DNA from: Synergistaceae bacterium
Lineage (GTDB): Bacteria; Synergistota; Synergistia; Synergistales; Aminobacteriaceae
DNA length: 64,000 nt
NCBI GenBank assembly: GCA_018436785.1
Contig: JAHDKR010000007.1
Span: forward strand, 1-64,000
Reading direction: 5' to 3'
The position numbers were made by a program, and so were the translations under genes. The notes beneath the pieces are model-generated. The model worked only from the letters and a program-made list of their open reading frames with translations. It did no database searches and was not told the origin of the DNA. Below, in pieces: positions 1 through 10,320 of the stretch. Every line of letters starts with the position of its first letter. Position 1 is the stretch's first letter.

Positions 1-36
1 ATGGGCGGAATGGGCGGCATGGGCGATATGTACTAA
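1..36 (+). CDS. groL: Chaperonin GroEL, C-terminal end only (partial)
   Basis: The first 36 bases read MGGMGGMGDMY and then TAA. This is the Gly-Gly-Met repeat tail that ends most bacterial GroEL subunits, the flexible tail lying at the bottom of the folding chamber. Everything upstream lies outside the window. The call rests on the tail alone, but the GGM repeat is distinctive and a strong terminator follows at once, as expected at the end of a groES-groEL operon. Nothing here shows whether other copies exist. Confidence 0.8.
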   Translation: MGGMGGMGDMY

Positions 37-64: not shown

Positions 65-103
65 AAAACGCCCCGGGGCATATGCTCCGGGGCGTTTTTT
101 TGG
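65..103. terminator. Bidirectional intrinsic terminator between groL and lanM
   Basis: An inverted repeat AACGCCCCGGGG / CTCCGGGGCGTT with a 6-base loop is followed on the + strand by a run of seven T. On the minus strand the same stem is followed by TTTTATTA. It sits between two convergent genes, the groL end at 36 and the lanM stop at 122, so it can stop transcripts from both sides. Confidence 0.85.
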
Positions 104-121
104 AAGCCGAAAACGATCCGT

Positions 122-3100
122 TTACTGAAGCAGGCTGACGATCTCTTCCGGAGCGCAGCAGCGCAGAAAGGTATAGCCGATGCCCGCCGAACCGTGAAAA
201 AGAGCCGGATTAAACACAATGCCGCCTTCGCTGCCGGTGAAGCGGAAACGGCCTGTACGCTGTTTTTGCCGGAGAATACCGACTGCCCTGGTGCGAGCGT
301 GTTCTACAAGCTCGTTGCGGTCAAGGCTCCGTCCCGCCGTAAGTAAAAAATCGACCATCGCCGCATTACCGCAACAGAGAGTATCTCCCGGTGCGGATGT
401 GTGCGACAAAGTGAAATCAAGAGCCCTTTCGACATCCCGTTGGATCATGCCTTTCAGTTCTTCCGCCCAGGGGAGACAGGCAAGGCGGAGCAAACCTATC
501 CCCGGGGCCCCGCTGCACCATCCGCTCATGAAAGACGGCCGCCCGCCCTCATTTTCCGTGTTTTCCCGATAGCGAAGATCCGGCCAGTTACCGGCGGTGT
601 TGTCGAAAAGTTCGTTTTCGTAGGCAATGCCTTCTTTCGCCGCTTCCGTATAGACCGCGTCGCCCGTCAGACGGAAGAGGCGCAACAGTGCGTAGGCGAT
701 GCCCGCCGCACCGTGGGCCGCGCCGCTTAAAGGGGCGTAGCCGAGGCCGTTGTCCCAAGCGCGGTACCCCGACGGCGTCGGTACTCGCGCGGACAAGAGG
801 CGTCGTCCGCATTTGTCCGCCAAGACAATCATGCGCTCCGGGCGCCGGGACACGGGCACTTGCGCCAGGGCGAGGATCAACCCGGCGACTCCCCCGAAAA
901 CATCCAATTGACGGTCATCGTCGATCTGCTCGTCGTGAATACGGGAGCACAGCAGGTGGAGATCATCCCAAAGGCCCTCATCCTCCAAATACTGCGCCAT
1001 TACCGCAAGTCCGCGTACAAGACCGGCCACTCCGTTTCCCAGTCCGAGACTCAGACGGTGGACGGGAAAGGGAGTGCGGGCGTCCCGTAACGTTCGCCGC
1101 CATGATGCGACAACTTGCAGCGCGTGTTTTTTTATCTCTTCTCTCCGGGTAAGACGCGACAGCGCGGCGAAAAAGACCCCCAGGCCCAGGCTCCCGTCAT
1201 AAAAGGAGCAGTTGATCGGTCCAAGGAGAATTTTTCGGGAAGAGGGCTCCATTTGGAGGGTAATCCATGAATAATCCCCGGTATCGCCCTGAAGGCGCCA
1301 CTCCATAATAGAACGGTGAACGCTCTCCGCTTCCGAAAGGAGTTGAAGCGTCGCATTCTCTTCGACAGTCTGAGAATTGCAGGGGAAGAGGGCGACAGCG
1401 TTCTCTTCCGTCACGTCCAGCAAAGGCGCCGGATCGCTGTGCGCTGCCGGCGAGTGCCGCCGCATCGCCAAGGCCGTCTGAATGAAGCGTGTCTGCACTT
1501 GAAGATCCGCTTCGCTTAAACCGGAGATGATCCTTCGGCAGCGTTCCAGCGCGCTTTCTTGAAAAAAACAGGGATGAAGTACCCGCTCCGCATCCCGGAG
1601 GGCGCGGTCTTCGGCCTTGGCGAAAAAGATGGGGACGTCCCCCCGTCCCAGAGCATCGGCTTCGCTCGCGAAGCAGCTCCCAAGCGGGTGAAGCTGGTCT
1701 CCGGGTTCGTGGAGGAAATAGGCGGCCGCCATTCGTTCCAACTCCAGAGAATACCGTATCCCGCCGCGTAAAGAGCAGGGATGCCGCAGCCGCTCCGCGA
1801 GATCGCCGTACACTCGGGTAGGACGCAGCAACGGACGCAACACGAGTCCTTCGAAGAACGCAAGCGGAGATTCCGCTCCCAGTAATTCTTCCCGTCGCTG
1901 TAAAAAAAAGGCGTACGCCTGCGCAAATCCTCGACACAAGGAAGCCCGGTAATCGGCCGCTTCCAGAGAACGCCCTTCGAGGACGGGAAGATTTGTCCCC
2001 GTCGGAGCGAACCCCGTCAAACCGCTGATATCCTCCGCATTTCCGCGGCCGTCGGTAACCCAAACCGGCAGAAGACCGATATGAAGCACCGAGTCGACAA
2101 GCATACGTAGAGCCTCCCGGGCCGCGCCCGTCCCCTCGTCCTCCTGAACGAAAGGTTGAAAGCGGTGGACGAGGAGGGTTTCCAGATCCACCGGCACAGG
2201 GTACGAACCTTGGGCGATCATGTTCTCCATATGGAAGTCGTTGGCTCCCAATACGTAGAATATGCACAATAAAACTCCGGATCGATGATAAAAGAGTTCG
2301 GCGTCCTCCTTGTCCGACAGGGGGCGCGGAGTAAGATATTCGACCCAGCAGTAATCGCCTTTGTCCAGCGCCGCCGGAACCGGACAGCACGGTAACCCCG
2401 CCGACTCGACCCATGCGATCCAGCGACGCCAAGCCTGATCTATTCCTCCGCTTCGCGGTTTGTAGACCAGATGCTCTCCCGTCTTCCAGCGAAGAACTGC
2501 CACGGTCCGGCCTCCGTTGTGAGGGTCGGACGCATCCGTCTCTATCCCGCTCAGTGCGGCGATCGACGGGGAAATGCTGAAGACCTGCTCCAGCTCGTAG
2601 CAATCTTTTTTCAATCGATCCAGGAGTTCGACCGTATATGTCACCCAATCTCCCGTTGTCTCGGAAAGACGTCGGCCGAGCACCGGATAAGTCCGGAGCA
2701 GATCGAACCAGCCCCCCGTTCGCAGGTCGGCCGCCAGCCGCTTGGCTTCGGTTGTGGTAATCTCCTGCGCCGGCGGACGGCCGAGAATGATCTGCAACGG
2801 GTAGGCAACTGCAAGTCTGCGGTGGATTTCGGCGCGATAGGTTTTCTCGCCGATCCGCATCAATCGTTTCGCCAATCCGGCCAAGAGTTCGTCGTGCACG
2901 GAAGCGGGGAGACAGGTATCCTCCCTTTCTTTCCCGAGATGCTCCCGTAGGGCGCGCGCTGCAAACAGAAGAAAGGGCTTCAAGGCCGTGAAAAGAGGCT
3001 CGGAATCGGCAGGAATCGAAGCGCCCTCCTCTTCCGAAGACGACGGCTCGAGGATTTTCTGCAGCCGGACCGCCCATTCGGGGAGCGGTTCTTCGAATCC

Positions 3101-3415
3101 GGCGCCGTTCTCCGAAGAAAGAAGGCATTGAAGCGTTCGCTCTTCAATGCCTTCCGCCGCAAGACGAGTGAGAAAGGCGCTTTTGCCGCCGTTTCCTCCC
3201 GCATGCCGAATCCATCGTTCGAGCAGTTCACGGCGCTCGGGATTCCATGGCTCGGGCGTTGCGATTTCAGAGGCGACAGCGCTGCAATACGCCGATTTTT
3301 CGCGCAGGAAACACGCTCCCGCCGCTATCGTGCGGATCACATTTCCCGTTTCGTGTACGGTTGTCACTTGGTGAAGAAGCAGTAGCTGCCGCGGGTAAAA
3401 ATGCAGTACGGGCAC
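122..3415 (-). CDS. lanM: Class II lanthipeptide synthetase LanM (dehydratase + cyclase)
   Basis: About 1,080-1,097 residues, normal for LanM. LanM dehydrates Ser/Thr of a precursor peptide by phosphorylation and elimination, then adds Cys thiols to form lanthionine rings. The N-terminal half is a DUF4135 dehydratase: KTGEHLVYKPRS near residue 310, ANDFHMENMI near 390 and VDLETLL near 410. The C-terminal 400 residues are LanC-like: GWCSGAPGIG (Cys about 967), LCCGNAAM (Cys about 1014-1015) and LFHGSAGIGY near 1075. The tandem Cys makes it a CCG-type enzyme, like ProcM, rather than CHG-type. The listed start is GTG at 3415, inside the precursor gene. A GTG at 3367 overlaps the precursor's TGA stop (GTGA) and is an equally good start giving 1,081 residues. 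No transporter or protease gene adjoins. Confidence 0.93.
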   Translation of the reverse strand: MPVLHFYPRQLLLLHQVTTVHETGNVIRTIAAGACFLREKSAYCSAVASEIATPEPWNPERRELLERWIRHAGGNGGKSAFLTRLAAEGIEERTLQCLLSSENGAGFEEPLPEWAVRLQKILEPSSSEEEGASIPADSEPLFTALKPFLLFAARALREHLGKEREDTCLPASVHDELLAGLAKRLMRIGEKTYRAEIHRRLAVAYPLQIILGRPPAQEITTTEAKRLAADLRTGGWFDLLRTYPVLGRRLSETTGDWVTYTVELLDRLKKDCYELEQVFSISPSIAALSGIETDASDPHNGGRTVAVLRWKTGEHLVYKPRSGGIDQAWRRWIAWVESAGLPCCPVPAALDKGDYCWVEYLTPRPLSDKEDAELFYHRSGVLLCIFYVLGANDFHMENMIAQGSYPVPVDLETLLVHRFQPFVQEDEGTGAAREALRMLVDSVLHIGLLPVWVTDGRGNAEDISGLTGFAPTGTNLPVLEGRSLEAADYRASLCRGFAQAYAFFLQRREELLGAESPLAFFEGLVLRPLLRPTRVYGDLAERLRHPCSLRGGIRYSLELERMAAAYFLHEPGDQLHPLGSCFASEADALGRGDVPIFFAKAEDRALRDAERVLHPCFFQESALERCRRIISGLSEADLQVQTRFIQTALAMRRHSPAAHSDPAPLLDVTEENAVALFPCNSQTVEENATLQLLSEAESVHRSIMEWRLQGDTGDYSWITLQMEPSSRKILLGPINCSFYDGSLGLGVFFAALSRLTRREEIKKHALQVVASWRRTLRDARTPFPVHRLSLGLGNGVAGLVRGLAVMAQYLEDEGLWDDLHLLCSRIHDEQIDDDRQLDVFGGVAGLILALAQVPVSRRPERMIVLADKCGRRLLSARVPTPSGYRAWDNGLGYAPLSGAAHGAAGIAYALLRLFRLTGDAVYTEAAKEGIAYENELFDNTAGNWPDLRYRENTENEGGRPSFMSGWCSGAPGIGLLRLACLPWAEELKGMIQRDVERALDFTLSHTSAPGDTLCCGNAAMVDFLLTAGRSLDRNELVEHARTRAVGILRQKQRTGRFRFTGSEGGIVFNPALFHGSAGIGYTFLRCCAPEEIVSLLQ

Positions 3416-3666
3416 CCTGCCGCGGCAACGGACTCCATCTGTTCGTCGTCCAAGGGGCCTTCCGGGATCATCTCCCCCGCTTTTTCCTCCAAAGCCGCCT
3501 GGAGCTGCGTCTCGGAGAAATCATATCCTTTTTCCCCCGCAAGCGCGACGTACATCTTCAGCAGGTCATTGCCGCAACTCTCCTGCAGGGCTTCCAAGGA
3601 ATCCTGAAGGTCCGTGGAAGCGCGCACCTCTTCAAAAAAATCCTCGATATTCTTCTCGGCCATCAT
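3364..3666 (-). CDS. Nif11-type lanthipeptide precursor peptide
   Basis: A 100-residue peptide. Residues 1-84 form an acidic helical leader (IEDFFEEV, LLKMYVALAGEKGYDFSETQLQ, LDDEQMESVAAAG) of the Nif11 type, ending in a small-residue AAAG site like those cut by double-glycine proteases. The core is residues 85-100, CPYCIFTRGSYCFFTK, with three Cys (85, 88, 96) and three Ser/Thr (T91, S94, T99) able to form thioether rings. Start is ATG 3666 or 3663, with a GGGGG ribosome-binding site about 7 bases upstream. Its end overlaps the start of lanM, so the two are probably one transcript with coupled translation. The leader type and modifying enzyme match the prochlorosin arrangement. The final structure cannot be read from sequence. 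Confidence 0.88.
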   Translation of the reverse strand: MMAEKNIEDFFEEVRASTDLQDSLEALQESCGNDLLKMYVALAGEKGYDFSETQLQAALEEKAGEMIPEGPLDDEQMESVAAAGCPYCIFTRGSYCFFTK

Positions 3667-3704
3667 TGCGTACCCCCTTTTTTGTCGTGGAAAAACCCAA
3701 GAAG

Positions 3705-3710
3705 AGTATA
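3705..3710 (-). promoter_or_regulatory. Candidate -10 box of the lanthipeptide operon
   Basis: On the minus strand a perfect TATACT stands about 40 bases before the precursor start codon. The hexamer 17 bases further upstream (CATCCG) does not resemble a -35 box, so either the promoter is weak or it needs an activator. The call rests on the -10 match and position only. Confidence 0.4.
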
Positions 3711-3965: not shown

Positions 3966-5483
3966 GTGTCGGAATACATAGTCGAGCTTGAGGGCGTCGG
4001 CAAATCCTTCGCCGGAATCAGGGCGCTGGACGACGTTTCGTTGAACCTGAAGAGCGGGGAGGTGCTCGCGCTTCTGGGCGAGAACGGCGCCGGAAAGTCG
4101 ACGCTGATGAAGATCCTCGGCGGAATCTATACCCGCGACACCGGGATCATCCGGGTCTTCGGGGAGGAGATCGACGAGATGACGCCGAAGCGGGCGAAAG
4201 AGCTGGGCATCGCCGTCATCCATCAGGAGCTGAACATGTGCACCCACCTCACCGTCGCGGAGAACATCTTCCTCGGCAGAGAGCTGCTCCGTTCGGGAAT
4301 GCTCGACGACAGGGAGATGAACATCCGCGCCGCCGAGGTGCTCTCCCGGCTGAACATCGACATCGCTCCCGATACAGTGGTGGGAACCCTTCCCATCTCG
4401 AAGCAGCAGATGGTGGAGATCGCCAAGGCGCTCTCCACGAACGCGCGGATCCTCGTCATGGACGAGCCCACCTCCGCGCTCACTTCCAAGGAAATCAACG
4501 ATCTGTTCCATATCATCCGTTCGCTGCGCGACCAGGGGTGCGGCATCATCTATATCTCGCACCGGCTTGAAGAGCTGCAGCATATCGTGGACCGCGTGAC
4601 CATCCTCCGCGACGGCAAGTACATCGCGACGACCAGGTTCTGCGATACCACCATGGCGGAGATCATCTCGAACATGGTGGGACGCGAAATCAAAGAGAAG
4701 TTCCCGAGGGTGGAGACACCGCTCGGGCGGACGATACTCCGGGTGAAGGGGCTGAACGCGGGGCGTCAGGTGCGGAACGTGAGCTTCGAGCTGCGCGAAG
4801 GAGAGATCGTCGGCGTCGCCGGACTCATGGGCGCAGGCAGGACCGAGATGACCCGCGCGCTCTTCGGAGCGGATCCGAAGGACGGCGGGGAGATTTTGCT
4901 CGACGAACGGCCTCTGCGAATTGAAAAGCCGATGGACGCGATCGAGGCCGGTATCGTCCTCGTGCCGGAGGACAGAAAAAAGGACGGGCTCTGCACCAAG
5001 CTGAGCATCCGCGAGAATGTCGCCCTTCCGAACCTCGATATCCTCAAGGGAGCGTTGTCAACGGTGAACAGCAGAGGCGAGCGGGAGATGGTGGAGCGGA
5101 CGGTGAAGAACCTCTCGATCAGGCTCTCGAACGCGGAGCAGAACGCCGACAGCCTCTCCGGCGGCAACCAGCAGAAGCTGGTGGTCGGCAAGTGGCTCGC
5201 CCGCGAGTTCCGCGTGGTCCTCTTCGACGAGCCGACCAGGGGGATCGACGTGGCGGCGAAGGCGGAGATATACCATCTTATGAACGACTTGAAAACAAGA
5301 GGGCTCGGCGTGCTCTTCATCTCCTCGGAGATGCCGGAGATCCTCGGTATCGCGGACAGGATTATCGTAATGTGCGACGGCCGCGTGACGGGGGAGTTCC
5401 CCGCCGGGACTGCGACGCAGGAGAAGATCCTCGAATGCGCCACGCGCTTCGAGGACAAGCTCGGCCTTGCGGCCGGGGATTGA
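3966..5483 (+). CDS. Sugar ABC transporter ATP-binding protein (RbsA/MglA family)
   Basis: A 505-residue double ATPase, the usual size of the RbsA/MglA/XylG family that powers import of monosaccharides through a permease dimer in the inner membrane. The first cassette has Walker A GENGAGKST (residues 38-46), ISKQQ in place of the usual signature near 145, and Walker B ILVMDEPTSAL near 165. The second cassette has the family's degenerate Walker A GLMGAGRTE near 283, LSGGNQQK near 397 and VVLFDEPTRGID near 420. It starts at GTG 3966 behind GGAGG. It is the first gene of an operon with permease, binding protein, kinase and isomerases. The exact sugar cannot be read from this subunit. Confidence 0.93.
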   Translation: MSEYIVELEGVGKSFAGIRALDDVSLNLKSGEVLALLGENGAGKSTLMKILGGIYTRDTGIIRVFGEEIDEMTPKRAKELGIAVIHQELNMCTHLTVAENIFLGRELLRSGMLDDREMNIRAAEVLSRLNIDIAPDTVVGTLPISKQQMVEIAKALSTNARILVMDEPTSALTSKEINDLFHIIRSLRDQGCGIIYISHRLEELQHIVDRVTILRDGKYIATTRFCDTTMAEIISNMVGREIKEKFPRVETPLGRTILRVKGLNAGRQVRNVSFELREGEIVGVAGLMGAGRTEMTRALFGADPKDGGEILLDERPLRIEKPMDAIEAGIVLVPEDRKKDGLCTKLSIRENVALPNLDILKGALSTVNSRGEREMVERTVKNLSIRLSNAEQNADSLSGGNQQKLVVGKWLAREFRVVLFDEPTRGIDVAAKAEIYHLMNDLKTRGLGVLFISSEMPEILGIADRIIVMCDGRVTGEFPAGTATQEKILECATRFEDKLGLAAGD

Positions 5484-9345: not shown

Positions 9346-10320
9346 ATGAAACCGTTTTCACTCGTACCCGTCTTCAAGGACTATCTCTGGGGCGGGACGA
9401 AACTCAAGACGCGGTTCAACAAGCAGACAGACATATCGCCTCTCGCCGAAAGTTGGGAGCTTGCCGCGCATCCGGACGGAGACTGCCGCATAGCGAACGG
9501 CTCCTTCGCCGGAACCCCGCTGTCGGAGTTTCTGCGGAAGTTCCCGGAATCCCTGGGAAGCGGCCGCGCCTCCGGAGGGGGGCTCCCCGTGCTGATCAAG
9601 CTGATCGACGCCCGGGAACCTCTTTCGGTACAGGTGCATCCGGACGATGTGTATGCGATGCGCACGGAGGGGGGCGCCGGGAAGACGGAGATGTGGTACG
9701 TACTCGACCGGGAACCCGGGGCGTTTCTCTACTGCGGCTTTGAACGGGATGTTTCCAGGGAGGAGCTGACGCGGCGGATAGCGGACGGCACGGTGACGGA
9801 GGTGCTGCACAAAGCGCCCGTGGAGCCGGGAGACGTGTTCTTCATGGAGGCCGGAACGGTCCACGCCATCGGCGCGGGGATAGTGATCGCGGAGATCCAG
9901 CAGAACTCGAACACGACGTACAGAGTGTTCGACTACGGCCGCCGCGGCCTGGATGGAAAAGAGCGGCCGCTGCATGTCGCGAAGGCGCTCGACGTCGCCC
10001 GCAGGGCTCCCGCATGCTCCGTTCCTCCCGGCGGCCGGCCTCCCGTCGTCCTGCCCGGAAGCACGCTCCGCCGCCTCGCGAGGTGCGCGTACTTCTCCGT
10101 GGAGCTTCTTGAGCTTTCGGAACACTGCGAGTACCGGACGGACGAAACATCCTTCCTCTCTCTCCTCTGTCTCGAAGGCTCGGCAAGGTTGGTCGAGGGG
10201 GAGTGGGGATTCGATATCGCGAAGGGAGACAGCGTCTTCGTCCCTGCGCGGAAAGGATCCGTCTTCCTTGAAGGACGCGGAACTTTTCTGCTGACGACTG
10301 TTCCGGACGGAGAGCTCTGA
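9346..10320 (+). CDS. manA: Mannose-6-phosphate isomerase, class I
   Basis: 324 residues. The type I PMI zinc ligands are visible: LSVQVHPDD (residues 94-101), GKTEMWYVL with Glu115, and EAGTVHAIG with His173; RVFDYGR closes the active site. The enzyme interconverts mannose 6-phosphate and fructose 6-phosphate in the cytoplasm, feeding glycolysis or making mannose precursors. It lies 45 bases behind the SIS isomerase and ends the operon. Its presence suggests that mannose, or a sugar reaching fructose 6-phosphate through it, is the operon's substrate; this is inference. A good Shine-Dalgarno (AAAGGGGGGA) precedes ATG 9346. Confidence 0.92.
   Translation: MKPFSLVPVFKDYLWGGTKLKTRFNKQTDISPLAESWELAAHPDGDCRIANGSFAGTPLSEFLRKFPESLGSGRASGGGLPVLIKLIDAREPLSVQVHPDDVYAMRTEGGAGKTEMWYVLDREPGAFLYCGFERDVSREELTRRIADGTVTEVLHKAPVEPGDVFFMEAGTVHAIGAGIVIAEIQQNSNTTYRVFDYGRRGLDGKERPLHVAKALDVARRAPACSVPPGGRPPVVLPGSTLRRLARCAYFSVELLELSEHCEYRTDETSFLSLLCLEGSARLVEGEWGFDIAKGDSVFVPARKGSVFLEGRGTFLLTTVPDGEL

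Follow-up and report, generated by a model that had tools for sequence, protein, structure and literature searches.

A putative two-gene class II lanthipeptide locus with a Nif11-type precursor in a Synergistaceae bacterium

The window analysed here, the whole of a 64,000-nucleotide stretch of DNA from a Synergistaceae bacterium, carries near its start a synthetase gene of the lanthipeptide type (lanM) that is overlapped at its start by a small open reading frame (lanA). This arrangement raises the question of whether the two genes encode a precursor peptide and the enzyme that matures it and, if so, what the product may look like. The reading favoured here, at a probability of about 0.8, is that of a two-gene class II lanthipeptide locus in which LanM would act on the adjacent LanA. 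The features on which the argument draws are given below, where the sister species, the nearest relative of the host, is Synergistaceae bacterium LM3-B13.2.

1..36, forward strand: 3' end of groEL, convergent, at which the contig begins; matches the ...GGMGDMY* end of the sister species and congeners
68..81, reverse strand: terminator-like hairpin after lanM and before the convergent groEL end (hairpin scan; kept in the sister species)
122..3367, reverse strand: lanM, class II lanthipeptide synthetase, 1081 aa from GTG 3367 (TIGR03897, DUF4135, LANC_like; residue alignment)
3364..3367, reverse strand: GTGA, 4-nt overlap of the lanA stop and lanM start (sequence; kept in the sister species)
3364..3666, reverse strand: lanA, Nif11-type lanthipeptide precursor, 100 aa (open reading frame, PF07862 and TIGR03798 matches, sister copy 89% identical)
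3367..3417, reverse strand: predicted core GCPYCIFTRGSYCFFTK, 17 aa (100% amino acid identity in the sister species, with one synonymous change; internal repeat)
3418..3666, reverse strand: predicted leader, residues 1-83, ending LDDEQMESVAAA (TIGR03798 register; AlphaFold2; dN/dS 0.23)
3673..3677, reverse strand: lanA ribosome-binding site, GGGGG, which is GGAGG in the sister species (sequence and sister alignment)
3705..3710, reverse strand: possible lanA -10 element TATACT, kept in the sister species, without a recognisable -35 (alignment)
3966..5483, forward strand: sugar ABC transporter ATPase (mglA/rbsA-like), divergent flank; 96-97% aa identity in genomes G002 and G004

The original prediction placed an open reading frame at 3364-3666, and the same coordinates were recovered here, on the minus strand and with a product of 100 amino acids, starting with ATG and preceded at 6 nt by a purine-rich ribosome-binding site. 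The Nif11-type precursor proposed there is borne out by PF07862 (30.0 bits against a gathering score of 23.8, E 6e-7), while the suggested search against Nif11 models fell short for the RiPP-leader model TIGR03798 (29.0 bits, under its cut-off of 32.3, E 1e-6). As the Pfam match exceeds the gathering score and the gene is conserved in the sister species (dN 0.05, dS 0.25, dN/dS 0.21), lanA is a real gene and a chance reading frame is excluded. Its leader is acidic, as had been described, with 21 D/E against 5 K/R, and an AlphaFold2 model of modest confidence (mean pLDDT 68) gives it helices at residues 7-16, 18-31, 35-46, 52-65 and 74-83, the core being poorly defined. Upstream of lanA a promoter scan gave no full sigma-70 match and there was no Rfam match to an RNA element. 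A phage or plasmid origin of the gene was also considered and rejected, with no precursor relative among viral contigs and only a chance match in the plasmid search.

The adjoining LanM was likewise predicted correctly, since the full-length protein scores 692 bits against TIGR03897 (cut-off 304), with a DUF4135 dehydratase domain (305 bits) and a LANC_like domain (166 bits), and its relatives include the solved LicM2 and CylM. Catalytic residues were checked in an alignment with 14 LanM or LanM-like proteins from other Synergistota, cyanobacteria, Priestia, Streptomyces and Halobiforma. The dehydratase retains the ATP-binding Lys, the catalytic HxxN loop, the DLE acidic metal site and the R/T elimination residues, and in the cyclase WCSG and LCCGN make up a three-Cys CCG zinc site in place of CHG. 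By these residues the enzyme is assigned to the three-Cys CCG (ProcM-like) type, the group of the substrate-tolerant ProcM and SyncM (PMC10027976, PMC10783134). A longer lanM reading from GTG 3415, which would overlap the core codons, is possible, but this start is not needed, as GTG 3367 is conserved and lies in the GTGA overlap. Compared with the sister species, lanM shows a dN/dS of 0.31 and a dS of 0.22, against a dN/dS of 0.07-0.09 for the neighbouring transporter genes.

The GTGA overlap likely couples the translation of lanA and lanM. In three congeners (G004, G001 and G003; loci L081, L082 and L083) groEL is directly followed by the ATPase gene, which in G004 is 97% identical to that of the window, without lanA-lanM, which makes the pair a discrete cassette that a genome either has or lacks; the sugar ABC ATPase gene is not part of the lanthipeptide pathway. 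A dedicated LanT (C39-ABC) gene alongside is usual, if not universal, in class II lanthipeptide clusters. In the sister species, where both flanks are present, the two genes have no neighbour of the transporter, protease, immunity or regulator kind. A lanT gene past the contig end was ruled out, given that groEL follows lanM in the sister species and that the window opens with 36 bases of the groEL end. Within the window's own genome, which is 83% complete, the only C39 peptidase found is on another contig (C19) and none occurs at lanA-lanM. At third codon positions lanA has a GC content of 0.73 and lanM one of 0.64, compared with 0.85-0.86 for two further genes in the window, which suggests that the pair was acquired. 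The dS of lanM is no larger than that of its neighbours (0.29-0.30), and lanM was therefore present before the window species and its sister split.

A Synergistota host, suspected in the original prediction, is confirmed by the closest LanM relative in the species-level genome collection, which at 87% amino acid identity over the whole protein is that of LM3-B13.2 (JAHDKT010000037.1), a MAG that shares its genus with the window's genome (G002). Both lanA and lanM are kept there at the same place, with identities of 100% for the core, 87% for the leader and 87% for LanM. The expectation that a lanthipeptide would be unusual in this phylum holds as to rarity but not as to uniqueness: LanM occurs over the cut-off in 6 of 188 Synergistota species and with any match in 8, and is thus rare, not unique. 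In the LanM tree the window protein groups with that of G031, at a support of only 88/91 and with long branches and few outgroups. Elsewhere in the Synergistaceae, in G031, G042 and G106, the lanM genes also adjoin GG-leader, Cys-containing precursors; two Pfam-confirmed Nif11 precursors lie near LanM in G031, and in G042 and G106 GG-leader precursors with Cys cores and weak Nif11 matches stand directly before it. These loci share with the window a leader-type precursor adjoining a three-Cys LanM, and differ in their GG leaders, in having Cys C-terminal to Ser/Thr and, for G042 and G106, in an extra radical SAM/SPASM gene.

Some further arrangements were seen. In two species of another genus a GG-leader Cys precursor, a LanM whose zinc site reads CCA and a radical SAM/SPASM gene stand in a row (L055, 5638-10092; L057, 978-4400), and may give a hybrid lanthipeptide/radical SAM product. 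Locus L056 (5819-11138) encodes two tandem LanM-like proteins without the cyclase zinc ligands, and a radical SAM gene lies close to them (3971-4930). An unlinked Nif11-like precursor with the core GCSYSYISASTSYCENPFTDWSW (L058, 3916-4260) occurs in G106, whose LanM is encoded elsewhere, and is possibly a substrate of that LanM in trans.

The pairing of LanA and LanM as precursor and enzyme, which we regard as highly probable from the sequences, is supported by a Nif11 leader over the Pfam gathering score and a LanM over its cut-off with catalytic and zinc residues kept. It is further supported by the four-base overlap, by purifying selection on lanA, lanM and the leader, by the presence or absence of the cassette as a unit, and by the like pairs at other Synergistaceae LanM loci and on a Nostoc plasmid. 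Counting against the favoured reading are the TIGR03798 score under the curated cut-off, the missing double Gly, the lack of accessory genes beside the pair in the sister species and the Cys order of the core.

Where the leader ends is indicated by its register on TIGR03798. The cleavage motif of Nif11 leaders at the end of family similarity is 'usually Gly-Gly' (PMC2887384). Residue 82 of LanA aligns with profile position 67 of 68 and the GG of GG-leader relatives falls on positions 67-68, so that A82-A83, invariant in the sister species, would occupy the double-Gly positions and the core would start at G84. This start (17 aa) is probably to be preferred over C85 (16 aa); of the 16-residue core originally proposed, the three Cys and three Ser/Thr stand, whereas the start and length probably do not. 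The C39 recognition pattern has Leu at positions -12 and -7 and Val at -4 (PMC6363468); LDDEQMESVAAA fits it in the same register, with Leu at -12, Met at -7 and Val at -4, and both AA and AG are absent from the cleavage sites GG, GA and GS given in that study. Within the core, YCIFTR and YCFFTK form an internal repeat with a spacing of eight residues, which was noticed after the fact and is matched by 27 of 20,000 shuffles. The ring-forming residues run C-C-T-S-C-T, with two of the three Cys preceding every Ser/Thr and just one having a Ser/Thr N-terminal to it, whereas the LanM-adjacent Synergistota precursors found here all have the usual order, with Cys C-terminal to Ser/Thr. The core and the last 16 residues of the leader end are invariant between the two species; for its length the identity of the core is not exceptional, 7% of equally long stretches of lanM being as conserved.

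From these elements a pathway can be proposed. The Nif11-type leader would be bound by the adjacent LanM, which would phosphorylate the core Ser/Thr, eliminate the phosphate and close thioether rings with the core Cys; such dehydration and cyclisation of the core is very likely. As the core repeats YC(I/F)FT(R/K), with Cys before Thr, two short methyllanthionine rings alike in kind may form. In the 17-aa numbering these would be C5-T8 and C13-T16, the Cys preceding the dehydrated Thr in both, while C2 and S11 would either stay unbridged or make up a third ring. This is the simplest and likeliest ring pattern, and it is put forward tentatively, with the odds somewhat against it. The ProcM-like SyncM closes rings in this reversed, Cys-before-Ser direction (PMC9872173). 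With no protease encoded alongside, leader removal and export would depend on a protease encoded at another place in the genome, be it the C39-peptidase ABC exporter of contig C19, acting in trans at the atypical Ala-Ala site, or another protease. The most specific version, in which a single-substrate CCG LanM installs two tandem identical reversed C-x-F-T methyllanthionine rings and a protease other than the known C39 exporters frees the peptide at a site without double Gly, is doubtful. With its cationic, aromatic core the product would most likely be a secreted bacteriocin-like or signalling peptide, as a default reading.

A single CCG LanM could instead modify many scattered Nif11 peptides in trans, as in the prochlorosin system, with LanA as one of them. 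The genome does encode eight Nif11 matches on four contigs and only one LanM (the 99% complete sister has 12 Nif11 matches), and the CCG motif is associated with substrate-tolerant LanMs (PMC10027976). The remaining Nif11 cores read in both genomes are, however, mostly hydrophobic and Cys-free behind regular GG sites, a double Gly in which the LanA leader does not end, and the sole other Cys-containing Nif11 precursor of each genome adjoins a radical SAM/SPASM gene and an NHLM exporter. Nor is the lanA core hypervariable, being identical between the species. As nearly all other cores are without Cys, one enzyme with one substrate is the most likely arrangement on these sequences, and a prochlorosin-like set is improbable. 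Near a contig end lie two more Nif11 precursors (L015, 590-898 and 2430-2708), both with a GG leader and a hydrophobic core free of Cys. On contig C19 (L016, 1-11884) an NHLM exporter of HlyD, C39-ABC and second ABC proteins (TIGR03794, TIGR03796 and TIGR03797) is encoded together with a radical SAM/SPASM protein and Nif11 precursors, one of which (9402-9815, minus strand) has a Cys-rich, Gly-rich core and lies between the radical SAM/SPASM gene and the exporter. This region, kept in the sister species (L060), looks like a radical-SAM-modified RiPP cluster.

The absence of a LanT alongside and the AA in place of GG in both species could also mark a locus in decay, once a lanthipeptide cluster but now deprived of its exporter and double-Gly site, whose peptide is no longer matured. 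The higher dN/dS of lanM than of the neighbouring transporter genes would fit with this, as would the acquired DNA suggested by a third-position GC of 0.64 against 0.85. Yet both genes are intact in two species with all catalytic residues kept, their dN/dS is well below 1, and the core and adjoining leader end have not changed, which makes decay very unlikely. The least probable alternative is a class II locus whose product is something other than a (methyl)lanthionine peptide, for example one that is dehydrated only or disulphide-bridged. Such a product is brought to mind by the Cys lying mostly N-terminal to Ser/Thr, against the common ring direction, but the cyclase retains its three-Cys site and reversed rings are known to be made by ProcM-like enzymes (PMC9872173).

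The favoured two-gene lanthipeptide locus joins a set of Nif11-leader precursors beside LanM already known from cyanobacteria and others (PMC2887384, PMC7268733). With the prochlorosins and synechococsins (ProcA/ProcM, SyncA/SyncM) it shares a Nif11-type leader, a class II LanM with the CCG three-Cys zinc motif, short cores that include Cys N-terminal to Ser, and precursor and exporter genes that can lie apart. In those systems each LanM serves tens of hypervariable substrates and the leaders end in GG, whereas here there is one linked Cys-containing substrate, with a core invariant in two species, AA for GG and a Synergistota host. On plasmid pNsp_b of Nostoc sp. ATCC 53789 a Nif11 precursor also stands directly before a CCG LanM (WP_114084673.1, WP_114084672.1), and the LanMs of Nostoc Nif11-LanM clusters are ~30% identical to that of the window, but the plasmid cluster has its own C39-ABC transporter and HlyD, a GG leader and an unrelated core. 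The lah cluster of Lachnospiraceae C6A11 (LahA1-9, LahT) likewise has Nif11 leaders in a lanthipeptide operon (PMC6363468), and differs in its nine precursors with double-Gly leaders and its dedicated LahT, neither of which is present at lanA-lanM. What is new relative to known Nif11-LanM pairs is the host phylum, the two-gene form without exporter, the Ala-Ala leader end and the Cys-first repeated core.

In the literature searched, the coverage of which is incomplete, no described Synergistota lanthipeptide was found. The locus would extend class II lanthipeptides to the Synergistota; three Synergistetes genomes included in an earlier survey of anaerobes had yielded no RiPP cluster (PMC4289311). 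Its absent double Gly raises the question of how the leader comes off, and its duplicated C-x-F-T motif offers a clean test of ring direction. As a small CCG LanM with one apparent substrate, the enzyme is relevant to the question of whether substrate tolerance is linked to the three-Cys zinc site.
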